64,000 bases of DNA from Gloeocapsopsis sp. IPPAS B-1203 (lineage in GTDB: Bacteria > Cyanobacteriota > Cyanobacteriia > Cyanobacteriales > Chroococcidiopsidaceae), in assembly GCF_002749975.1 (NCBI RefSeq), contig NZ_PEIG01000008.1, positions 62,001-126,000 of the forward strand, read 5' to 3'. The notes below the pieces were generated by a model, which had not been told where the DNA came from, did not search any database, and saw nothing but the letters and a program-made list of their open reading frames with translations. Positions within the stretch are counted from its first letter, which is position 1, and each line of letters opens with the position of its first letter. Positions 3,255 to 64,000 of the stretch are shown here, piece by piece. The translations under genes and the position numbers were made by a program.

Positions 3255-4325
3255 ATGTTAGAAACACTCAACTCCAGTTCCGTCTTAGAAGTTTTGCGCC
3301 CCGTGCAAGATCCAGAACTCCGCAAAAGTTTGGTGGAACTGAATATGATTCGCAATGTCAAGATTGACAATGGCAAGGTTAGCTTCACCTTAGTTTTAAC
3401 AACTCCAGCTTGTCCATTACGTGAATTCATTGTTGAAGACTGTCAAAAGGCTGTTAAGCAGTTACCTGGTGTAACTGATGTTGCTGTTGATGTGACAGCT
3501 GAAACTCCACAACAAAAAAGTTTACCTGACCGAACGGGAATTTCTGGTGTCAAAAATATTTTGGCAGTTTCTAGTGGTAAAGGAGGAGTAGGAAAAAGTA
3601 CTGTTGCAGTTAATATTGCGGTTGCGCTTGCCCAAACAGGAGCAAAAGTCGGATTACTCGATGCTGATATTTATGGACCAAACGCACCAACAATGTTAGG
3701 ACTTGGAGAAACTCAAGTCATGGTACGGCAAGGTCAACAAGGTGAAGTGCTAGAACCTGCATTCAATCATGGTGTAAAACTGGTATCAATGGGATTTCTC
3801 ATTGATCGCGACCAACCCGTGATTTGGCGCGGACCAATGCTCAATGGTATTATTCGCCAGTTCTTGTATCAAGTTGAGTGGGGAGAACTCGACTATCTGA
3901 TTGTTGATATGCCACCAGGAACAGGAGATGCCCAGTTGACACTAACCCAAGCTGTACCAATGGCGGGTGCAGTGATTGTCACAACACCCCAAACTGTAGC
4001 ATTACTTGATTCGCGCAAAGGCTTGCGGATGTTCCAACAAATGCAAGTGCCAGTGTTAGGTATTGTAGAAAATATGAGCTACTTTATTCCGCCAGATATG
4101 CCAGAAAAGCAATACGACATCTTCGGTTCTGGTGGTGGAGAAAAAACCGCAGCAGAACTTGGCATACCGTTACTCGGATGCGTACCGTTAGAAATCTCGC
4201 TGCGTCAAGGTGGCGATCGCGGTGTCCCTATTGTTGTTGCCTACCCCGATTCTGCCTCTGCAAAAGCTCTAAAGGCGATCGCACTTAGTATTGCTGGTAA
4301 AGTCTCTGTCGCCGCCTTAACTTAG
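3255..4325 (+). CDS. mrp: Mrp/NBP35-family iron-sulfur cluster carrier P-loop ATPase
   Basis: This 356-residue protein has an N-terminal MIP18-like (DUF59) domain (about residues 5-80) and a ParA/MinD-type P-loop domain with the deviant Walker A SSGKGGVGKST at about 106-116, then LLDADIYGP, and the Mrp signature DMPPGTGD. Mrp/ApbC proteins bind an Fe-S cluster and hand it to apo-proteins; here the Fe-S-rich photosystem gene psaC lies 1.6 kb downstream on the same strand. The ATG at 3255 is preferred over the TTG at 3234 because it gives the N-terminus seen in cyanobacterial Mrp proteins (MLETLNSSSVLEVLRPVQD). The gene is complete and shows ordinary codon use. Confidence 0.95.
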   Translation: MLETLNSSSVLEVLRPVQDPELRKSLVELNMIRNVKIDNGKVSFTLVLTTPACPLREFIVEDCQKAVKQLPGVTDVAVDVTAETPQQKSLPDRTGISGVKNILAVSSGKGGVGKSTVAVNIAVALAQTGAKVGLLDADIYGPNAPTMLGLGETQVMVRQGQQGEVLEPAFNHGVKLVSMGFLIDRDQPVIWRGPMLNGIIRQFLYQVEWGELDYLIVDMPPGTGDAQLTLTQAVPMAGAVIVTTPQTVALLDSRKGLRMFQQMQVPVLGIVENMSYFIPPDMPEKQYDIFGSGGGEKTAAELGIPLLGCVPLEISLRQGGDRGVPIVVAYPDSASAKALKAIALSIAGKVSVAALT

Positions 4326-52236: not shown

Positions 52237-54408
52237 TTACTTTTTAGTCAGGTTGATAATTGTGCCTAGAACTGAGCAGTTGGACAACTTCAGTCTTTCT
52301 AGTGCCTTCTTTAATGCTGATTTTTTTGTCTTTGCTAACCCTACAACCAAAATGCTGGTGTCAGTTTGGGCAGCAACAATGCTACTGTCTGCAAATTTCA
52401 ATAATGGTGGTGTGTCATATATGACAAAATCAAATGCAGAGTATAAATCTTTGGCTAAAATCTGCATTTTCTGCGAAGTCAGTAGACTGATAGGATTGGG
52501 TGGAACCTGTCCAGCTGTCAAAACAAAAAAGTCATCTTCTAAAGGTGATTTGACTGTTCTTAATTCTGCATCTGCTGAGTTGTAACCTTCAAATGTTGTT
52601 AAAATATTAGATGATCGCTGAATCACATCTTGAAAATTTAATTCTTCAGCAATGATATTACTTAAACCCTTTGTATTTGGTAAGCCCAAAAGCATATGAA
52701 TTTTAGGACAACGCAAGTCTGCATCTACTAATAAGACGCGTTGACCCATTGCCGCGATTGTTTGGGCTAGATGCACAGCAATAGTAGAACGACCATCTCC
52801 AGAAGTTGGTGAGATAATTGAAAGCGATCGCACAGGTGTATCAAAGCTGAGGAAGCGGATGTTCGTGTACAAAGAGTGTAATGATTCTTGATAAGCCTCG
52901 TTATATCGTTGTATAGGAATTTCACCTAATAGTGGAAGGTTAGCGATCGCTTTAACTTCATCACTTGTATAAAAGACATTTTTTAACTTATCTACCAGTA
53001 ACGCAGCCGCAATTCCTAAAATTAAACCGAGACCTGTTCCTAAAATCAGAACTTGTTTCACACTCACTGTAGAAGATTTAGGTTCAGTTGGAGGAGTCAG
53101 TAATTGCCAAGGACTCTGCTTTTGTGCAGCATCAATTTGCAGTGCTTCGCGCTTAGTCAAAAATTGGTTGAGGTTATCAACTGCAATTTTGAGTTGTCGT
53201 TCTAAATCATCATTTTGACGCACAAGTACAGGAAATCGTTGAAACTGTTGTCTTAAAGATTGTTCTGCTTGTGTCAATGCTAGACTTTGTGCCTTTAATG
53301 CTTGTATTTGGTTGGCAGTATCAAAGAATTGCTGAGTTTGCTGCTGACGTAATGAATTGGGAGATGCTAAAGTTTTTGACTCGAAGACATTATTAGGAAC
53401 TGTATTTAATAATACTCGTTGCCCTTCTTGCTCAATTAAAGGCAGTAAATTTTGTTTTTGATCGCGTAGTACTTGAATTTGAGGACTATCATCATGATAT
53501 TTTGATGACTCTACTGCAATTTGACTTTCTAATTCTTGTAGTTGGTTTAATAGCTTTTGGTAGCGGGGAGCCTCACTTAAAGCTGAAGCAGTTTTAGCTT
53601 CTTCAGGTTGCAGTTGCAACTGATTTTGCAAAGTACTGTGGAGTGATTGAAATTTTGCTAACTGTGTTTGTGTTTCCAATCGCTGCTGAACAATTCCGTG
53701 TAGCTGATCGGCAAGTTGCTTACCTTGGTTTGCAGGATCGATAAGATTGTACTGTTGACGAAATGTTTGTATTTGTTCTTGTAGACTTTCGACTTGCTGT
53801 TGTAGTTGCGGTAACTGCTGTTCTACAAATTGAATACCTTGGCGAACATCTGCTTGACGCTCTTCTAAGCTGTATGCTACGTATGCTTGTGACACAATGT
53901 CCAAAACTAGAGAAACTTTTTTAGGGTTTAGAGCTTGATAACTAACCTCTAAAACATTCGTTCCTGTAACCAAATTGAACTTAAGTTTTGGTACGCCATG
54001 ATTTGGATATCTTGCTTCAATATCTTTAACGATAGGAAGCATGATTTTAGGACTTTGCAAAATTCTAAGCTGAGTTTCATTCACACCTCCAGAATGCCTG
54101 TCTACTTCTTTATTTAAAAGCGATGGCGTTAACTTGTTTTCTACAGTTTCTGGTGTAATCAAAAGCTCAAACTTAGCTTGATAAGTTGGTGTACTTGAGA
54201 AAGCAAAAGCAAAAGCAGCAGATGCGATCGCCGTTGTTATACCAGCAACGATCATACCTCTTCTACGTAAAGCTCCAAACAACTGACCAAGATCTAAGCC
54301 ACCTTCATCTCCCTCCTCTAACTGAGTTGTATACACTACAGGTAAAGAGTGAATTGACTTGCCATTTTTCTCTGGTAATAACTTGGGAAAGTAGCTTCTA
54401 GCCTTCAT
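52237..54408 (-). CDS. Wzc/CapD-like polysaccharide co-polymerase with C-terminal P-loop domain
   Basis: The 723-residue product has two membrane segments (about 51-72 and 452-472) around a long coiled-coil-rich periplasmic part (Wzz type, about 190-440, many Gln), then a cytoplasmic bacterial-tyrosine-kinase-like domain. The Walker A region reads SPTSGDGRST with Arg540 where lysine is usual; the Walker A' LLVDADLRCPK and Walker B FVIYDTPPLL are kept. No tyrosine cluster is present at the C-terminus. Such proteins control the chain length and export of capsule or exopolysaccharide. It is divergent from a WecG/TagA gene across a 1.9-kb gap. Confidence 0.92.
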   Translation of the reverse strand: MKARSYFPKLLPEKNGKSIHSLPVVYTTQLEEGDEGGLDLGQLFGALRRRGMIVAGITTAIASAAFAFAFSSTPTYQAKFELLITPETVENKLTPSLLNKEVDRHSGGVNETQLRILQSPKIMLPIVKDIEARYPNHGVPKLKFNLVTGTNVLEVSYQALNPKKVSLVLDIVSQAYVAYSLEERQADVRQGIQFVEQQLPQLQQQVESLQEQIQTFRQQYNLIDPANQGKQLADQLHGIVQQRLETQTQLAKFQSLHSTLQNQLQLQPEEAKTASALSEAPRYQKLLNQLQELESQIAVESSKYHDDSPQIQVLRDQKQNLLPLIEQEGQRVLLNTVPNNVFESKTLASPNSLRQQQTQQFFDTANQIQALKAQSLALTQAEQSLRQQFQRFPVLVRQNDDLERQLKIAVDNLNQFLTKREALQIDAAQKQSPWQLLTPPTEPKSSTVSVKQVLILGTGLGLILGIAAALLVDKLKNVFYTSDEVKAIANLPLLGEIPIQRYNEAYQESLHSLYTNIRFLSFDTPVRSLSIISPTSGDGRSTIAVHLAQTIAAMGQRVLLVDADLRCPKIHMLLGLPNTKGLSNIIAEELNFQDVIQRSSNILTTFEGYNSADAELRTVKSPLEDDFFVLTAGQVPPNPISLLTSQKMQILAKDLYSAFDFVIYDTPPLLKFADSSIVAAQTDTSILVVGLAKTKKSALKKALERLKLSNCSVLGTIINLTKK

Positions 54409-56320
54409 TTATATTCCTATGTTCTTATAGATTTATTCGTATTGCCGTAAAAACAACGAGCTAACTTAAGTATTTTGAAGTAAAGTGTATGAAATAATAA
54501 ATTCGGATTGTATTTTAAAATAAAAGTTCGCTACTTCAAAAAAACTATTAATTATCTATTGATAGAACTGTTCATCTCTATGACCAAACTTAAAATATGT
54601 AAAAATAACGATAGCATTTCCTCAAGCATAAATTATAAAATTGACTTTCATGTAAACTTTATAGACTGCTTCTAATGTGTAAAGCTTAAATGAAAATCAT
54701 CAAGGAGAGTAGCATATAATTTTCTTTTGCTTATGATAGCTACAGAATAAATGAACTCTAATTCTCTATATTGTTTAAATAGCTATTTGCAATAAACTAT
54801 CTAGTGTCACAAGTATGTGCGTATAGTATTTAATTGCTAAGTTCAACTATTAAACACTTCAATTTTAAATTTGAATATTAATCCAATTACTTATTAAGGT
54901 ACTAGTAGTGTTTTCAATAAATCCAACTTCAAAAAAACTGTATTACAAATTTGCAAAGAGCAATAAGTACTCTAAAAAATAAGTTTAAGTATTTATCTAG
55001 ACTTATGTTTAAGGTTCAATTTATCAATTTTATATCTACTATTACTCACCATTCTGACCAAGAGTATTTGTTTAGAAAACTTATTTTTAGACATAGTTAT
55101 ACACAGCAAGAGCTAATGAATACTCAATTAGTGTAACTTTAACTTATGTGTTGAAAAATGAAATGAGCAATATTGTTTATGTTAGTAAAAGCATAAAGCT
55201 ATAAAGAAAAACTATAATTTACTATAATAATTTAATCCAACTATTTTCAAATTATTACTCAAGTTGATTTGCCACGTATCGCAATACAACAGAAAGAAAA
55301 TTGCATTTAGCTATTAAAGTTTTTTTACTGATGAATAGTCTAATGTAGTTAATCTACTTCTTGTTGAAAAAAACTACCACAAAAAAATAACCTTAAATAG
55401 TTTCCCTTTATAACTAAATTTTAATAAGATTGTAACTCTATAAATGCAGAGATGCATAGAAAGATAGAACATTTACTGCCAGGAAAAATACTTTCATATA
55501 CATATATAGAAAGACTGTTTTATTTTAAAGATACATGCAGATGTTGTTTTTGTAAAAGATATTTTGCATAAAAAAACTATCTTTGTTGTTCATAACAAAG
55601 TACTTGCACTCTTTTGGTAAAAAGAGCATAGGGCATGAACGATCGCAAGTCGAAAAGATAGATTTTTATTTTGGGAACACCTATTTTTACTGTGTTAAAA
55701 GCTATGTGCTTACTTGTCTATCTTTAAATAAAAACTAATACTGATATTTCAAAATTTAATTCTTTAAACAACGTCGCTTAACAAGTCACAAACATATGTA
55801 TTTATCAATGATAATAGATACTTGTCATAATAAGCAACTTATTAATTTTTTGTTATTTATATTCAAGGTAAGCCATTAAATCTTCTTCACTCAATTTTTA
55901 AAGAATAAAACTATAATATTTGACCTCTGATCCTTAGGAATAAACAAACTGAAGAGAAAACCAAAGTACCAATAGAATAAACATCACTCTATAGATATAT
56001 TTTTTTTGTAAATGATTCGTTTTTTAATTGCCTTAACTAGGAAATAACATTTAAAATTTTGAACATAAACAATGCATTAATCGTACTGATTTGTGCAATG
56101 TTCTAAACTTCGATTTACAAAAATAGATTCATTTTACCAATCTTTAAGAGTTGTCTGCCTTGCAAGACTCTTAGATTTCAGTATTAATTCACAATTACTT
56201 ACTTTTTCAAATTCATATTATTTGTTGCTTGTTTTACTTTTTAAAAGTACTTCTACAAATTAAATATGCTTAGCTTTTGTAAGTAGAAAATTTCAAAAAA
56301 TACTTTATTAGGACTAAAAC
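54409..56320. other. 1.9-kb AT-rich region without genes
   Basis: All six frames are broken; the longest open frame (61 codons at 54951) has no support. The region is very A/T-rich with almost no HIP1 sites. It holds a pair of tandem hairpins at 55581-55626 and an AAGAGT/ACTCTT pair near 56145. It separates two divergent polysaccharide genes and could hold long leaders or decayed sequence. Confidence 0.5.
55581..55626. other. Two adjacent perfect hairpins in the AT-rich gap
   Basis: CTTTGTT-GTTCAT-AACAAAG (55581-55600) and CTCTTTT-GGTA-AAAAGAG (55609-55626) stand eight bases apart. They could belong to a small RNA, a leader, or a terminator pair. There is no gene within 600 bases. Confidence 0.35.
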
Positions 56321-57196
56321 ATGACTTTAGCTTTAGAAACAATAAAAACAAATAAGTATTATTCACAAACTATTAAGTCAATTAAGTCATTGGTGAATGT
56401 AATTAATGTGCCCATTACTGCTCTTCCTTTAAGAGAACAGATAGAGATAATTCTTGATTGGGCTAATCACTTTGAAAGTAAAACTGTTTGTGTAGCAAAT
56501 GTACATATGCTAATGGAAGCTCACAATCAACCTGCTTTTGCTACCGTTTTGAGAAATGCAGATATGGTGACACCTGATGGTATGCCCTTGGTTTGGATAA
56601 TGAAATTAATGGGGGCATACTGGCAAGATCGAGTAGCTGGGATGGATATTCTTTTATCTTTGTGTCAGTTAGCTCCACAAAGAAATACTAGTCTTTTCTT
56701 TCTAGGTTCCACAACGGAAACATTAGAAAAGATGAAAGAAGAAATAAGTGATAAGTTTCCTGACTTGCAAATTGCTGGCAAGGAGTCATTACCTTTTAGA
56801 CCACTTACAGAAGAAGAGGATAGGGCAATTATTCAAAAGATTAATAGTAGTGGTGCTGGAGTGGTTCTAGTATCCTTAGGATGTCCAAAGCAAGAGTACT
56901 GGATAGACCAACATAAAGGAAAAATTCATGCTGTCATGATTGGGTTAGGAGGAGCATTTCCCGTATTTGCTGGAATTCATAAAAGAGCACCTTTTTGGAT
57001 GAGAAATCTGGGGTTAGAATGGTTGTATCGCCTGATTCAGGAACCTCGTAGACTGTGGTATCGCTACTTGACAACTATTCCACCTTTTCTATTTTTAGCT
57101 TTAGTACAGTTAATAATGTCAAGGCTGAGTATTTGGCAAAGAACAGCAAATTTATGGAGTCAATTTGTAAATAAAACTGCCACAAATAAAGTGTAG
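56321..57196 (+). CDS. WecG/TagA/CpsF-family glycosyltransferase
   Basis: The 291-residue product is a GT26 enzyme: VANVHMLMEAHNQPAFATVL, the catalytic-aspartate motif VTPDGMPLVW, LFFLGSTTETLEKM, LGCPKQEYWI and GLGGAFPVFAG, and a hydrophobic C-terminal tail (PPFLFLALVQLIM). These enzymes add N-acetylmannosamine-type sugars to lipid-linked precursors of surface polysaccharides. Its neighbour across the gap is the Wzc-like gene, consistent with exopolysaccharide synthesis. The N-terminal 25 residues are variable. Confidence 0.93.
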   Translation: MTLALETIKTNKYYSQTIKSIKSLVNVINVPITALPLREQIEIILDWANHFESKTVCVANVHMLMEAHNQPAFATVLRNADMVTPDGMPLVWIMKLMGAYWQDRVAGMDILLSLCQLAPQRNTSLFFLGSTTETLEKMKEEISDKFPDLQIAGKESLPFRPLTEEEDRAIIQKINSSGAGVVLVSLGCPKQEYWIDQHKGKIHAVMIGLGGAFPVFAGIHKRAPFWMRNLGLEWLYRLIQEPRRLWYRYLTTIPPFLFLALVQLIMSRLSIWQRTANLWSQFVNKTATNKV

Positions 57197-57414
57197 GCGA
57201 TCGCTCAGTGTAAAAATATAAACTTCATGCAATATCTGTTTGAGTAGGACTTTGCGAGCGCAAGTCTACGCAGTCAAGCGTACTGAGCAAGGTTTACTTC
57301 TTGGTTATAAGTAGAACATATATTGAGATGGTTCTTGAGTTGAGTTCGATTACTGCTTAAAATGATAAGCATTTCACATATAAGCAGTAGACGCTCTCTT
57401 GTCCTGGAGGAATC

Positions 57415-58371
57415 ATGAGCCATCGCCCTATCATTCTTGGTATTGTCGGAGACAGTGCTGCTGGTAAAACTACATTAACTAAGGGAATTGCTCAGGTACT
57501 TGGACCAGAGAATGTTACAGTTATCTGCACAGATGACTACCATCGCTATGATCGCCGTCAGCGGGCTGAGATAGGTATTACAGCCTTACACCCCGACTGT
57601 AACTATCTCGATATTATGCAGCAACACCTGTCCTTGTTACGCACAGGACAACCTATTCTCAAACCAATCTATAGTCACAAAACCGGTACTTTTGAGCCAC
57701 CACACTATATCAACCCTAGTAAATTTGTCATCGTCGAAGGCTTACTTGGCTATTCAACTCGCGGTGCGAGAGACTCATTTGACGTCAAAGTTTATCTTGC
57801 ACCACCAGAGTCACTGCGCGCACAGTGGAAAATTAAGCGCGATACGCAAAAACGAGGCTATACAGCAGATCAAGTCAAAGCAGAACTAGAAAAGCGCGAA
57901 CCTGATTCTGAACAGTTTATCCGTCCTCAGCGCCAATGGGCAGATGTTGTTGTCAGTTTTTATCCTCCTGGCGATGAACCGAATCAAGGTAACGGTCACT
58001 TAAATGTACGCTTAGTATTGCGTCCAACGATCCCACATCCAGATTTTACGCAAATTTTGAACATTATCAGCACTCATCCTCATCCAGCAGTGCGCTTAGA
58101 TTTGGATCGAGATATGAACAAGCCTGTAGATGTTTTGGAAGTTGATGGTCATGCAACGTCGGAGCAAGTAGATGATTTAGAAAAGATTATCTGTAATGAT
58201 ATGCCACCTCATCTCTCACATTTTTGCAGTCGCGAAAGCAATCCTGAGTTAGGTAAGGTTGCTGGTACTACTGGAGAAACACTTCAAAGCTATCCTCTTG
58301 CTATAACCCAACTTTTGATTACATACCATATGCTCAAAGCCACACAAATTTATCAACAAGTTCTTGTTTAA
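57415..58371 (+). CDS. Phosphoribulokinase-like P-loop kinase (non-canonical paralogue)
   Basis: The 318-residue product belongs to the phosphoribulokinase/uridine kinase family: Walker A GDSAAGKTT (residues 12-20), ICTDDYHRYDRRQRAE (about 37-52), KPIYSHKTGTFEPPHYINPSK, and FVIVEGLLGY. The Calvin-cycle cyanobacterial PRK has a regulatory cysteine inside the P-loop (GDSGCGKST); here that place is alanine, although the second cysteine position (Cys38) is kept, so the classical thiol switch cannot form. The C-terminal half also differs from the standard enzyme. It could phosphorylate ribulose-5-phosphate or another sugar or nucleoside. GGAGG before the ATG supports the start. Confidence 0.85.
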   Translation: MSHRPIILGIVGDSAAGKTTLTKGIAQVLGPENVTVICTDDYHRYDRRQRAEIGITALHPDCNYLDIMQQHLSLLRTGQPILKPIYSHKTGTFEPPHYINPSKFVIVEGLLGYSTRGARDSFDVKVYLAPPESLRAQWKIKRDTQKRGYTADQVKAELEKREPDSEQFIRPQRQWADVVVSFYPPGDEPNQGNGHLNVRLVLRPTIPHPDFTQILNIISTHPHPAVRLDLDRDMNKPVDVLEVDGHATSEQVDDLEKIICNDMPPHLSHFCSRESNPELGKVAGTTGETLQSYPLAITQLLITYHMLKATQIYQQVLV

Positions 58372-58438
58372 ACTTGCAACAGTAAATCCACCAGCGTAAA
58401 CTTAGTCTGTCTAACAGCAAATTCTGCATGTAGCAAGT

Positions 58439-58890
58439 TTAAGTCATATACAATCGTGCAATTCCTTCTTTGATGACTTCAACAAGTTGCTCTTGTCGGA
58501 GACTAATATGGGCAGACATACAGTTTACAATTGTGACGGTAATGTGCTTTTTCCATAGAAATAAGACGCAAATAATATGCGCGGGCATTGATAGCTTCTA
58601 AGGAGTGTAACAGTTCTGCATTTTGCGACAACATGGCAATCTGCTCGTGAAAGCGTTCATCACATTGAGCGCACTCTAGTGGTGATAACTTGTTAAATTT
58701 TCGTGCTGCTGTCTGCCAAAACGTCACTAGCTTGTCTACTTCAGCATTAGTAGCTCATTCTGTAGCTAACTTCGCACTCATCATCTCTAAGCCACAGCGC
58801 ACCTCATATAAATCAAAAATCATTTTGGTATCAAGTGTTCGACAAGAAAAGCCGCGTCGCGGTACAAAATCTAACAATCCTTCTGCCCCA
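58439..58890 (-). pseudogene. GntR/FCD-family regulator, truncated and frameshifted
   Basis: Read on the minus strand from about 58890: GAEGLLDFVPRRGF (end of the winged helix), MIFDLYEVRCGLEMMSAKLATE (start of the FCD domain), then an in-frame TGA, then DERFHEQIAMLSQNAELLHSL and RAYYLRLISMEK, and in another frame SLRQEQLVEVIKEGI at the C-terminus. A full protein of this family has about 225 residues; here the first 60 or so (recognition helix and promoter) are absent because the sequence changes into the Rieske gene at about 58890. Stop and frameshift confirm it is dead. Confidence 0.85.
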
Positions 58891-59731
58891 AGGAGAAATT
58901 GTCAATGGTTGCGTACGCTGTCCTTACCACGGTTGGTCATTTGATCGCCAAGGAACTTGTGTTGCAGTTCCTCAACTTAAACCCGAACAAAGCATTCCTC
59001 CTAGCTATCAAGTGCGATTATACAAGTGTGCTGAACGTTATGGCTATGTATGGGCATGCTTGCGTAATGAACCACTGCTACCTATTCCCTGTATTCCTGA
59101 AGCAGATGATGCTACGATGCAGCTCATTCCCCAGTTCTATGAACCTTGGCAGTGCAGCGGACTGCGTTTGATGGAAAACTCCTTTGACAATGCTCACTTT
59201 AGCTTTGTTCATGCAAATTCATTTGGCGATCAACAACAACCAGAACCAGTTTCCTCGGAAATAAGTTCCCTAGAGTATGGTTTACAAGTTCGGGCAACAA
59301 TTCCTGTAGTTAATCCACCTATGCAGCGCAAAAATCTCAGTATCGAAGATGAAGTCACAGTGCGTTATGTAGTTTCAACTTGGTATATGCCTTTCAGTCG
59401 CACATTGAAAGTTACTTACCCCAACGGCTTGATACATCTGATTTTTACTGCTGCGACTCCAGTGAGCGATCGCACTTCTCAAATTATCCAATTTTGTATT
59501 CGTAATGATATCGAAGCAGATGCTCAAGCAGTTGCTCTTGTCGCGTTTGATCGACAAGTGACACAGGAAGACAAAGCAGTACTAGAAACTACAGATTATG
59601 ACACACCATTATATATCAATGCCGAGCAGCGTATGCCTTCAGATCGACCAGGGATCATCATGCGACGCGAGCTAGCAGCGTTACTCAAAGCCCATGGCGA
59701 AGTAGAACAACGCTTAGAAATGCTGGTGTGA
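58835..59731 (+). pseudogene. Rieske [2Fe-2S] ring-hydroxylating oxygenase, 5'-truncated
   Basis: The homologous part starts at about 58893 (QGEIVNGCVRCPYHGWSFD). It holds only the second half of the Rieske motif (CPYHGW); the first CxH half is missing. The catalytic domain follows: LMENSFDNAHFSFVHANSFG carries the bridging aspartate and iron histidines, then VSTWYMPFSRTL and the C-terminal helix. The first 19 codons of the open frame (58835-58892) are antisense to the gntR remnant, so the ATG at 58835 is accidental. Without the complete cluster site the product cannot transfer electrons. Confidence 0.85.
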
Positions 59732-59815
59732 TAAAGCTTTTCTATTTGAGTTACAAATATCCGGTTAGTGCATCAAGGCTGGTAATTGGTCATTGGTATT
59801 ACGAATGACAAAATC

Positions 59816-60172
59816 ATGTCTGTTTTCATTCACAATGTCTTGATTTCTGATGGAGACTCGACAGCCTCGGCTTCTGTGGAGTTGAAAGGCGATCGCATTT
59901 ACCAAGTCTATTCTCCAATTGATGCAACGGTTGATACTTTCATTGATGGACGTGATAAACTACTTCTACCAGGATTTGTCAATGCTCACACGCATTCTTC
60001 TCAGGTGTGGCAATGCGGTTTAATTCTGCAACGACCTTTAGAAGTGTGGCTAGCAGATGTAGATGTAGCCGCGCTTTATCAAGAATTACGCGATCGCACT
60101 CGTCATACTGATCTACCCCAATTTCGTACGCTCAATTCAATCGAAGCACATTATCGACAGATGTTGCTTTAG
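59816..60172 (+). pseudogene. Amidohydrolase with internal deletion
   Basis: The 118-residue frame joins the N-terminal part of a TRZ/ATZ-type amidohydrolase (MSVFIHNVLISDG to LLPGFVNAHTHSSQVW, with the first metal HxH) to a short C-terminal piece (FRTLNSIEAHYRQMLL). About 300 middle residues, including the other metal ligands, are missing, and the frame happens to stay open. The junction is near GATGTAGATGTAG (60057-60069), a 6-bp direct repeat, which suggests slipped recombination. Its stop overlaps the stop of the convergent intact amidohydrolase gene by four bases. Confidence 0.75.
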
Positions 60173-61686
60173 AACAAGTCCTCAGTCAGAATTTTAGGAT
60201 CGACAGGTTGTGTCAAACAGCGATCGTAAATTTGTCGATAGTAAGGTAAGAAAGTTTGCACAGTTGCTTCCGATTCTTGCATTGCAGGCAATATTTGATC
60301 ATGCACTTTGCAAATTGCTTCAATCAGGGCTTGCTCGTCAACTTGAGTGAGTTTACCACCGCGCATCACTTCCATACCATCAACAACAACTAAATCGACA
60401 GCAGCACCCGTTTGAGCATAAACGAGTTGCCGTAGAGGATGATTCAGTGGTACAAATGATAACTCGTTAAGTCGGTATCCAACAAAGTCAGCCTGATAGC
60501 CAGGGGCAATTTTTCCTAATTGCTCACAGCCAAATGCCTTAGCACCCCCAATTGTAGCAAAGTCAAAAGCTTCCTCGGCAGATATCCACTGTTCCGGAGG
60601 CGTTGCAGGTGACTTGTTCAGTAAAACAGCAGCTTGCATAACACAAAGCATATTGAGGCTATCTCTCGACCCACAGCCATCACTTGCTAGAGCAATGTTC
60701 ACTCCTGCTTGTTGAAAAGCACGAACAGGCATTTTACCACTACCCAGTTTGAGATTAGAAAGCGGGTTATAAACAACACTTGCTCCTGATTTAGCCAGCA
60801 ATTCAATGTCATGTGGTGTTAGCCAAACACAATGTTGCAAAGCAAGGCGATCGCTCAAAATACCCAACTCAGCTAAATACTCAGTCATCGAACATTGGTA
60901 AAACAATTGCCCTGTAACTGCTTGTAAGCGTGTTTCGAGTAAATGTAGCATCATGGGAAGATTGTAGGTATTTGCCAATTCTCCAAGCTGAACTAGAAAA
61001 GTGCGACTACAACGCTGTGGTGCAGAAGGTGCAACAATGTAACCGACTCGATGTCGATTTGGATGATGTGTTTGTGCCAAGTGCTGTGCAAGAGTTAATA
61101 AGCGATCGCGATCGGGTATACCTTGACGCTCTAGTTGTTCACGCAGATGAACTGGCATTTCTTCATCAAAGAAAGGCACTGCACGATAAAACGGTAAATC
61201 ATAAAGACTAACGCTAACTAATGCCCGCAATCCAATATCTTCATAAGCTTGGAAAACAGCATCAATACACTCCAACGAAAACTGAGGAGCATGATTAACA
61301 TCATCTACAACAAACGTTGTCCCCGTGCGAATAGCTTCTATAGCACCAATCATCGTGCGTAGATAAACTTGCTCTGGCGTTAAGGGTGGCGGTGCAACTG
61401 GTGGACGGACAAAGTGCATCCATAGCTCAAGCGGTAGGTTATCAAACCGTCCTTTATGAAAATGTTCATGCGAATGAAAATGTCCATTGATTAAGCCAGG
61501 AGTGACCAATAGCCCTGTTGCATCAATTACCGTACAGTTTTGAGGAACAGATAAACTTGCAGCAACTGCGACAATTCTACCTTTCTCGGTCAAAATATCT
61601 GTATGAGGTTGTGGTAATGTATCACTTGCTGCTAGAACCAAAGCATTTTTGACGAGCAATTTATCAGTTCTTGGGGAAATACTCAT
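60169..61686 (-). CDS. Amidohydrolase-superfamily deaminase/hydrolase
   Basis: The 505-residue product has the metal-binding motif GLINGHFHSHEHF (about 66-78), the mid-barrel histidine in MMLHLLETR, QHCVWLT, and the aspartate of ALASDGCGSRD, so all catalytic ligands of a cytosine-deaminase/TRZ/ATZ-type enzyme are present. The substrate would be a nitrogen heterocycle or amidine, but this is not shown. It starts three bases after the stop of the substrate-binding-protein gene, so both are one transcript. It is the only intact enzyme of the decayed cluster at 58.4-62.8 kb. Confidence 0.85.
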   Translation of the reverse strand: MSISPRTDKLLVKNALVLAASDTLPQPHTDILTEKGRIVAVAASLSVPQNCTVIDATGLLVTPGLINGHFHSHEHFHKGRFDNLPLELWMHFVRPPVAPPPLTPEQVYLRTMIGAIEAIRTGTTFVVDDVNHAPQFSLECIDAVFQAYEDIGLRALVSVSLYDLPFYRAVPFFDEEMPVHLREQLERQGIPDRDRLLTLAQHLAQTHHPNRHRVGYIVAPSAPQRCSRTFLVQLGELANTYNLPMMLHLLETRLQAVTGQLFYQCSMTEYLAELGILSDRLALQHCVWLTPHDIELLAKSGASVVYNPLSNLKLGSGKMPVRAFQQAGVNIALASDGCGSRDSLNMLCVMQAAVLLNKSPATPPEQWISAEEAFDFATIGGAKAFGCEQLGKIAPGYQADFVGYRLNELSFVPLNHPLRQLVYAQTGAAVDLVVVDGMEVMRGGKLTQVDEQALIEAICKVHDQILPAMQESEATVQTFLPYYRQIYDRCLTQPVDPKILTEDLF

Positions 61687-61689
61687 TAG

Positions 61690-62772
61690 TTAAACGACAA
61701 CTTCACGATTGAAACGTTCAATCCACGTTGGTAAGTTTTTACTAATTGTTTGCCAATCGAGTGGTACAAGCTTCTCAACTACAGCTTCTGTTGTGCTACC
61801 TAGTCTTTCGGCAATGAAACCTGAAATTTCCGCCCTGCTGTTTGTCGGCACAAAATAATAAGGTGCTGAAGCCATTTGCGTTTGCACCTCAGGGCTAATT
61901 GCCGCATCAATGTATGCAGCAGCAAGTTCGCGTTCCCTCGGATTCCTGACAATATGCATTGACGGGCTAATTAGTAATGCGCCTTCTTCAGGTACAACCC
62001 AATCAACTGGGGTTCCTGCGGCTGTAAGTGGAGCCATATTATTCAAATAATGCGGGGCGATATCAATTTCTCCTTGCTGAAACAAAACCGAGAGCGCACC
62101 AGGATTAGACGCAACCGCAGCGACGTTTGGTAAGATTTCTCGAATTGCCTCAAAAGCTGGTTCAATATTATTTTCCCCACCACCGCGCATTCTTGCAAGT
62201 TGCACCATAAAAGCAGTTCCCACCGTACTTTGCATACTAACAAGTCCAAGCCGACCTGCATATTCTGGTCTCCACAAGTCTTCCCATGAAGTAGGCGGTG
62301 TAGAAATCCGGTCAGTATTGTAACCGATACCGATCGCTTGCACGGCTACAGTAGGTCCCCATTCATCAGCTTTTGTTTGATACTGCGGTAACAAATCTTG
62401 AAAGTTTTCGCTCTCATCGGCAGGGAAGGGTTGTAATATTTGCTCAACTGGAGCATTACGAAATGGTCCTTCATCTAAGAGTGTTACATCGTATGGAGGA
62501 TTATTAGCTGATGCTGTGAGTTGTGCTACTTGGTCAATTGCCAATTGTGGTACTAAATTAATTGTTGTTCCGGTTTTCTGGGCAAAGTAAGGCACTAAAA
62601 TTGTTCGATGTGCTTCCTCCCAACTTCCTGTAAATGTTGCCGCAACGAGTCTATTACCACCTGTCTGTGTTGCTTGGTTTCCACCACAACCTTTAAGTAA
62701 TAAGCTTGTTCCCGCAAATAGTCCAGCACCTAATAAGGCACGACGAGACATCCTCATTAAAGAATCAGACAT
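61690..62772 (-). CDS. ABC transporter substrate-binding lipoprotein (PotD-like)
   Basis: The 360-residue product begins with a twin-arginine signal and lipobox (MSRRALLG, LLLKGC with Cys29 as lipid site), then shows the type of spermidine/putrescine and iron periplasmic binders (FTGSWEEAH, WGPTVAVQAIGIGYNTD, PPTSWEDLWRPEYAGRL, YFVPTNS). No permease or ATPase gene is adjacent, so it is an orphan here. It probably brings a nitrogen compound to the amidohydrolase that follows. The signal peptide implies folding before export. Confidence 0.88.
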   Translation of the reverse strand: MSDSLMRMSRRALLGAGLFAGTSLLLKGCGGNQATQTGGNRLVAATFTGSWEEAHRTILVPYFAQKTGTTINLVPQLAIDQVAQLTASANNPPYDVTLLDEGPFRNAPVEQILQPFPADESENFQDLLPQYQTKADEWGPTVAVQAIGIGYNTDRISTPPTSWEDLWRPEYAGRLGLVSMQSTVGTAFMVQLARMRGGGENNIEPAFEAIREILPNVAAVASNPGALSVLFQQGEIDIAPHYLNNMAPLTAAGTPVDWVVPEEGALLISPSMHIVRNPRERELAAAYIDAAISPEVQTQMASAPYYFVPTNSRAEISGFIAERLGSTTEAVVEKLVPLDWQTISKNLPTWIERFNREVVV

Positions 62773-63007
62773 AAGTTCGCAGCTATTAACTGTAATAAAA
62801 GTAAGATTGAAGATACAGCTTAGCGGTTTCTAAGTTAGTAAAATTTACGACAGTATCGATGTTATTTCATGTGCTGTCCAAAACCGATTTGCTATAGCCT
62901 CAGATGCGATCATTACTTAATTAGCATTAATATAGAGAACCTAGAACTTTTAATGAATCATGCTTTCTTCTTGTCACTGCAAAAGAAGCTACACATATGT
63001 ATCAACC

Positions 63008-64000
63008 TTAAAATGGAACGGTATTAGTTTGAGCATTGCTAGTTAATTTATGTGTAAATTGATGCATTTTAGAATATAGCTTTAAATATTGATTAGCTGC
63101 ATTTGCTTTTGAAAATCGGTCATCTCTGTTTTTATTGGTATGAGGTTGATTTAGTGCTTGGGTAATAGCTTGAGACAGATTTTTGACTGGGTTATCCTGT
63201 AAATTAAAATAAATGCAAGCTTCAGAACCCACTTCTTCAAAGATGGGAATAGCTGAACAAACGACTCGACAAGAAAGATACAAAGCTTCTGCTAAAGGAA
63301 TACAAAAACCTTCTGTTGAAGAAGGAATGATAAACAATTGGCAATTTTGATATAACCAGCACAACTCGCTATCACTAATTGCCGATACCATCAATACTTG
63401 TTCTTCTAAGGACAATTGAGAGATTAATTGCGAAAGATTATCTGTTTCGGGTCCTGAACTACCTACAATCACAAGCTTAGTAGAAGATGGTAGTTTATTT
63501 TGTTGTAGCAATAGGGCAAAAGATTGAATGAGTAAATCTAAATTTTTGTTTTTTCTATGTTGACCAATAGTTAATAAAAATGGGTTATATAACTTGTGTT
63601 TTAGTTCTAATAATGGTTGAGGAGTAATTTCACTAAAATCGACATAATTATAAATTACACAAGTTATTTTCTTAGGGTCTATATTTGGGAAAAAGTGATT
63701 TAGGCTTGCTAATGTTGTTTGAGAAACACACGTCAATCCGTCACTTTGGTGAATACATTGTTGTAGAAAAAGGCGATTGAACAAAGCTTGGTAGCCAAAA
63801 TTTTCTGGGTATTCATAAGGATAAAGGTCGTGAATAGTAGCAACAACAGGACAACGAAAGAGCGATCGTAAAAATGGTAATGGAAAGGATAAATGCACAT
63901 ACGTAGGGCGAAGCTGCTGTACTAGTCTGGGTAAACCGAACCAAAACCACAGATTTCTAGCAATTGAGTTATTTTGAATATTGATATCAACTAGCTTGAT
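63008..64000 (-). CDS. GT4-family glycosyltransferase (5' end outside window)
   Basis: The open frame runs to the window edge without a stop; the GTG at 63898 is internal. The visible 330 residues show the end of the acceptor domain (VVATIHDLYPYEYPENFGYQ, LTCVSQTTLASLNHFFP) and the donor domain (FLLTIGQHRKNKNLDLLIQSF, LVIVGSSGPETDNL, IPSSTEGFCIPLAEAL with the EX7E motif, VVCSAIPIFEEVGSEACIYF). These enzymes add sugars from nucleotide donors to surface polysaccharides or lipids. The gene continues to the right. Confidence 0.9.
   Translation of the reverse strand: MKLVDINIQNNSIARNLWFWFGLPRLVQQLRPTYVHLSFPLPFLRSLFRCPVVATIHDLYPYEYPENFGYQALFNRLFLQQCIHQSDGLTCVSQTTLASLNHFFPNIDPKKITCVIYNYVDFSEITPQPLLELKHKLYNPFLLTIGQHRKNKNLDLLIQSFALLLQQNKLPSSTKLVIVGSSGPETDNLSQLISQLSLEEQVLMVSAISDSELCWLYQNCQLFIIPSSTEGFCIPLAEALYLSCRVVCSAIPIFEEVGSEACIYFNLQDNPVKNLSQAITQALNQPHTNKNRDDRFSKANAANQYLKLYSKMHQFTHKLTSNAQTNTVPF

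Follow-up and report, generated by a model that had tools for sequence, protein, structure and literature searches.

Gene remnants in the window

The window, by which we mean the whole analysed stretch of 64,000 nucleotides, lies on contig C8 of the 5.9-Mb cyanobacterial genome of Gloeocapsopsis sp. IPPAS B-1203 (G000). The genomes used for comparison were Gloeocapsopsis crepidinum LEGE 06123, of the same genus (G001; contig NZ_JADEWN010000031.1, locus L024, the same as L032), a third Gloeocapsopsis congener (G002, locus L129), and a genome of another genus (G004, locus L023). Remnants of a gntR regulator gene, a Rieske oxygenase gene and an amidohydrolase gene were found between intact neighbours:

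57415..58371, plus strand: PRK/uridine-kinase-family gene, intact left neighbour (Pfam PRK, E 5e-38)
58439..58886, minus strand: gntR/FCD regulator remnant (FCD, E 2.3e-12; alignment to the intact G001 and G004 genes)
58529..58530, no strand: 59-bp deletion with frameshift inside the gntR remnant (alignment and junction mapping)
58755..58757, minus strand: premature stop codon in the gntR remnant (translation; position hand-counted)
58835..59731, plus strand: chimeric open frame of 298 codons with a GTG start (ORF list and junction mapping)
58886..58890, no strand: large-deletion junction (G001/G004 comparison)
58892..59731, plus strand: remnant of Rieske2, a VanA-type oxygenase, 279 codons (Pfam and alignment)
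59816..60172, plus strand: amidohydrolase 1 remnant, 118 codons (comparison with G004)
60169..61686, minus strand: amidohydrolase 2, intact neighbour (Pfam Amidohydro_1, E 1.2e-53)
61690..62772, minus strand: extracellular solute-binding protein 2, intact neighbour (Pfam SBP_bac_6, E 3.3e-27)

The PRK gene is also collinear in G. crepidinum and in the third congener. Amidohydrolase 2 lies outside the decayed cluster; it is open in the third congener and 5'-truncated in G. crepidinum. A search of a plasmid collection with window positions 57400-62800 gave zero matches. The truncated look of a glycosyltransferase at 63008 is a mere effect of the window edge. Further to the left, positions 54751-55900 form a 1.15-kb stretch at 25% G+C, compared with about 38–47% at 57000-62750, and a single ORF of at least 60 codons (54951-55136) is listed from 55000 on.

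The gntR remnant lacks its 5' end, including the start and the helix-turn-helix part, and has its stop codon at 58439-58441 (minus-strand reading). Pfam detected FCD in the minus-strand read-through translation, which crosses one stop. The domain (PF07729) is incomplete, covering profile positions 1-93 of 125, and is cut by the 59-bp deletion. For the GntR helix-turn-helix (PF00392), no Pfam match was obtained in the remnant at E up to 1; the intact gntR of G004 has it at residues 18-76 (E 8.9e-19), together with FCD at 88-211. Because the helix-turn-helix is lost, the regulator is predicted to be unable to bind DNA.

The Rieske2 remnant comprises the last four-fifths of the gene, and its 5' end is missing. 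In the frame 58835-59731 the Rieske profile is matched at positions 51-86 of 88 only (E 8.9e-8), compared with 2-84 of 88 in the intact G004 homologue, and VanA_C (PF19112) is complete (E 4.3e-18, profile 1-193 of 193). The remnant thus keeps C-P-Y-H, the catalytic VanA_C domain and the E-N-x-x-D-x-A-H...H stretch, and lacks the first Cys-x-His; both pairs are present in the orthologues of G. crepidinum and G004. One pair of the [2Fe-2S] ligands (Cys-x-His ... Cys-x2-His) is therefore left, and with the first Cys-x-His lost the oxygenase should be unable to form a [2Fe-2S] cluster. The initial annotation had both genes truncated at their 5' ends, which is what we find, and the alignment with intact proteins that it proposed, run here, placed both missing halves in the G004 homologues. 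Its gntR stop codon and its end of the open frame at 59731 were likewise right.

The surviving oxygenase copy is Rieske2, with 85–86% identity, compared with 60% to Rieske1. The source genome has three Rieske matches in all; the other two are 38 and 30% identical, and there is no Rieske1 elsewhere in it. In a metagenome-assembled genome (MAG) of Elainella sp. Prado103 (L050:10001-10897), Rieske2 is missing the latter half of its Rieske domain; either a further copy of this gene is broken or the MAG is at fault.

From the interior of amidohydrolase 1, 1035 bp (345 codons relative to G004) are missing in frame at 60059-60061, which reduces its metal-dependent barrel (TRZ/ATZ-type) to the N-terminal H-T-H part and the C terminus.

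The large-deletion junction and complete clusters

Comparison with G004 puts the junction between 58886 and 58887, and comparison with G. crepidinum within 58886-58890. In the latter genome both flanks are collinear with the window across this one junction: window 58530-58886 corresponds to L024 14200-13844, and window 58890-59801 to L024 9840-8932. Between these flanks G. crepidinum carries genes for an NMT1-type binding protein and for an ABC ATPase with a frameshift, part of a permease gene, and Rieske1; at the window junction the collinearity comparison turned up no fragment of any of them. The missing interval measures 4000 bp against G. crepidinum and 3491 bp against G004, both of which are shortened by importer deletions of their own; in three complete clusters (L045, L047 and L052) the corresponding interval is 4951-5357 bp. 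Four genes and both 5' ends went in the deletion. Hence, the mapping bears out the earlier observation that two genes abut at a single junction with both promoter regions gone. The frame at 58835 is a chimera, as had been proposed, but about 17 of its first codons, rather than 19, are antisense gntR. Because the deletion ends share only about 2–3 bp in present-day G. crepidinum and G004, the deletion looks illegitimate and not repeat-mediated, and long repeats were rejected as its cause.

The ancestral order, reconstructed from relatives, is gntR in reverse orientation facing an NMT1-type binding protein, followed by ATPase, permease, Rieske1, Rieske2 and amidohydrolase. We surveyed 79 loci from named contigs, drawn from the best 80 of 230 confirmed matches. 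The complete cluster was present in at least three of these 79 (best 80 of 230), namely Nodosilinea nodulosa PCC 7104 (L045), a Synechococcales MAG (L047) and Nodosilinea sp. P-1105 (L052), a count that is a lower bound, as many of the loci are on short contigs. G004 has the same gene order, with the cluster and the PRK gene on separate contigs (C3 and C2). A cluster-type gntR (identity at least 78%) occurred in seven of the 79 loci (best 80 of 230), adjoining the binding-protein gene in five of the seven (L032, L045, L047, L052 and L061). In L038 and L050 (two of 79; best 80 of 230) it is directly divergent from Rieske1, with no matches to importer genes in between.

The source genome also holds, on contig C12 (L135:1038-5248), an intact paralogous NMT1-type importer with binding protein, ATPase and permease. 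Its binding protein is 63% identical to the lost cluster copy, and it is followed by a putative FAD-oxidase-like gene, so named by the look of its sequence.

Among 60 genomes, Rieske matches with E below 1e-90 were found in 11, the source genome included (G000, G001, G004, G007, G015, G016, G019, G021, G022, G045 and G057). None at this threshold was found in the third Gloeocapsopsis congener, nor in G010 and G014, which belong to the genus of G004. The Rieske gene is patchy and therefore so is the cluster, which fits gain and loss.

Course of the decay

In G. crepidinum the cluster occupies the same locus as in the window. Its importer and its amidohydrolase 1 are broken, the latter by a frameshift, an internal deletion and stops, and its Rieske genes are intact. 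The importer ATPase and permease are broken both in G004 (L023:7203-7878) and in G. crepidinum (L024:11198-12307), with different end points, and the Rieske genes of G004 are intact despite this damage. In addition, a 614-bp deletion in G. crepidinum (L024:5926-7887) cuts and joins solute-binding protein 2 and amidohydrolase 2, two genes that remain open both in the window and in the third congener. In that congener the PRK gene adjoins amidohydrolase 2, and the end of gntR lies between them (about 62–69 bp; L129:4038-4113); no other part of the cluster was found there between the two genes. The gntR piece matches the window over 62 bp at 87%, and of an 80-column match to G. crepidinum at 85%, 69 bp belong to gntR. 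From this gntR end it follows that the cluster was once present in the third congener and was then lost. In that genome the amidohydrolase-2 frame extends a few codons into the scar and ends at 4084.

The third congener may show the window's loss at a more advanced point, or an independent loss. Since the three possible pairings of the congeners are supported by nearly equal numbers of sites (40, 34 and 42), we do not claim independence; an unrooted four-taxon tree paired the window with G. crepidinum in 75 of 100 replicates.

In Rieske2, whose 279 codons contain zero stops, 22 of the codon changes unique to the window lineage alter the amino acid and 33 are silent. The corresponding numbers are 5 and 27 for G. 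crepidinum and 7 and 30 for G004, together 12 and 57. The excess of amino-acid changes in the window over the other two lineages has a Fisher p of 0.008, which is one of six tests and borderline at 0.048 after Bonferroni correction. Such an excess was absent from the gntR part (6 vs 14, p 1), and no significant excess was seen for amidohydrolase 2 (p 0.29), for PRK with two different third genomes (p 0.26 and 0.57), or for the N-terminal part of amidohydrolase 1 (p 0.58), where the result says little, the G. crepidinum copy being frameshifted. The dN/dS of Rieske2 was 0.11–0.19 between the window and G. crepidinum and 0.10–0.15 between the window and G004, compared with 0.07–0.08 for the intact pair, G. 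crepidinum versus G004, across these codons. We read this pattern as a recent loss of constraint. The lack of stops and a dN/dS still at about 0.10–0.19 speak against a long-dead gene: either the loss is recent or some constraint remains.

We are confident that the window holds the remains of a seven-gene catabolic cluster that decayed through a deletion fusing gntR to Rieske2, that is, a pseudogene cluster. The cluster, with gntR, an NMT1-type ABC importer, two tandem Rieske genes and a TRZ/ATZ-type amidohydrolase, would once have been flanked by the PRK gene and amidohydrolase 2. A large deletion would then have fused gntR, cut in its middle, to Rieske2 at about codon 61, and smaller deletions would have broken gntR again and gutted amidohydrolase 1. 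By analogy with G. crepidinum and G004, damage to the importer genes may have preceded the large deletion. The single deletion of the initial annotation is thus retained as an event, but not as an isolated one, given the 59-bp deletion and stop codon in gntR and the 1.03-kb deletion in amidohydrolase 1.

Taken strictly, the model of the initial annotation would derive the arrangement from a pair of divergent neighbours, gntR and Rieske2, from which a small deletion removed the short spacer and both 5' ends. The direct divergence of gntR from Rieske1 in L038 and L050 (two of 79 loci; best 80 of 230) speaks in its favour, but four genes intervene between gntR and Rieske2 in G. crepidinum, G004, L045, L047 and L052, and the survivor is Rieske2, not Rieske1, so that we consider such a pair very unlikely. 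The undeleted divergent pair that was to be sought in relatives is replaced there by a gntR facing the NMT1-type binding-protein gene and a Rieske1 preceding Rieske2. Abutting truncated divergent genes, then, need not have been neighbours, which corrects a reading that was plausible from the raw sequence. The same two loci, without importer matches between gntR and Rieske1, leave room for a two-step path, in which successive deletions would, for example, first have brought gntR up to Rieske1. The ATPase and permease deletions with differing ends in G. crepidinum and G004 also agree with this variant of the deletion-fusion account, but one junction with zero leftover intervening pieces is more simply made by one event. 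We therefore regard successive deletions as rather unlikely and a single event as the probable origin of the large junction.

An assembly error at 58890 would mimic the fusion, and the junction is known here from the assembled sequence; still, the lesions flanking it (the 59-bp deletion, the stop codon and the 1035-bp deletion) and the excess of amino-acid changes in Rieske2 are what genuine decay would leave, and the junction sits on a 268-kb contig of an assembly that is 99.91% complete, so that such an error is highly improbable. Equally improbable is that the chimeric frame encodes a novel working protein, in which an N terminus of antisense origin would precede a catalytic domain that lacks a functional Rieske cluster. 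It is open over 298 codons and retains VanA_C and the E-N-x-x-D-x-A-H...H stretch, but its [2Fe-2S] ligands are lost, its constraint is relaxed and its neighbours are broken. Moreover, no purine-rich, ribosome-binding-like sequence was seen by eye in the 20 bases before the GTG at 58835, and no plus-strand promoter-like site was found in 58372-59900, where the one such site is on the minus strand and shuffles average 3.2. The chimeric frame would thus be an accident without function, from which nothing useful appears to have been made.

What the deletion-fusion account describes is ordinary gene and operon decay, with a good comparative series. It forms a natural series of operon loss, from complete clusters in other genera through the partly broken one of G. 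crepidinum to the mostly lost one of the window, and ends with the gntR tail of about 62–69 bp in the third congener.

Probable function and comparison with known systems

The cluster probably imported and oxidised a purine-like compound. Purine oxidation is suggested by HpxO-like and PuuE-like genes near some homologues and by NdmA as the closest solved structure. An HpxO-like gene was found near the Rieske gene in 10 of the 79 loci (best 80 of 230), a count in which L109 is a partial match and L071 is the contig that supplied the query, and a PuuE-like gene in six of the 79 (best 80 of 230). The reference genes scored above the NCBIfam cut-offs (HpxO 642.7 vs 500; PuuE 543.1 vs 424.6). Most of the 10 HpxO loci have a single Rieske gene at 54–60% identity, and L040 (a Pseudanabaena frigida MAG) has a tandem Rieske pair with both HpxO and PuuE. 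HpxO exceeded its cut-off in all 13 genomes searched, the source genome included, and in none of 14 control genomes, so that its neighbourhood, not its presence, is the evidence. The purine reading is indirect, because none of the seven loci with cluster-type gntR (among the 79; best 80 of 230) has HpxO or PuuE nearby. The solved structures nearest to the intact Rieske2 of G004 were NdmA (E 2e-37), SxtDIOX (8.2e-32) and NdmB (1.6e-30). Both amidohydrolases fell below the cut-offs of the listed NCBIfam families, amidohydrolase 1 being nearest to 8-oxoguanine deaminase (260.8 vs 532 bits), and the HpxD model was absent among the NCBIfam matches of the intact Rieske proteins.

No such cyanobacterial cluster was found among the literature matches listed, in their titles and the beginnings of their abstracts, and the cluster may be undescribed in cyanobacteria. 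Tentatively, it could be an as yet undescribed operon through which cyanobacteria take up and oxidise purines or their methylated forms; it would be patchy and repeatedly lost, and its substrate would have stopped mattering to Gloeocapsopsis. The last point is suggested by the three congeners having damaged different parts at one locus, one of them also in the neighbouring amidohydrolase-2 genes. The locus thereby points to a possible, testable purine-related cluster in cyanobacteria.

Pseudogene clusters formed by deletion in bacteria show truncation on both sides of one junction, small lesions and intact relatives. The present case differs from these in general in that two congeners display other stages at the same locus. 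Among known enzymes, Rieske2 is likened, from its sequence, to the methylxanthine demethylases NdmA and NdmB, NdmA being the protein of solved structure closest to the intact G004 copy. HpxD of Klebsiella, which is described as oxidising hypoxanthine or xanthine (PMC7373994, in the part available), is likewise a Rieske oxygenase and is set beside the cluster by description, some homologues here lying near HpxO and PuuE. In Proteobacteria, according to the same part of that source, NMT1/TauA proteins, Rieske-type dioxygenases and guanine-deaminase-like amidohydrolases occur under a xanthine riboswitch (PMC7373994). An Rfam search of window positions 54000-64000 and of L023, L024, L032 and L033 found no family at the gathering score, and so no xanthine riboswitch. 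As far as that part of the source describes them (PMC7373994), the Proteobacterial purine-oxidation sets place the same kinds of protein under one regulator, sometimes in series; unlike them, the cluster described here is cyanobacterial, lies beside gntR and has tandem Rieske genes.
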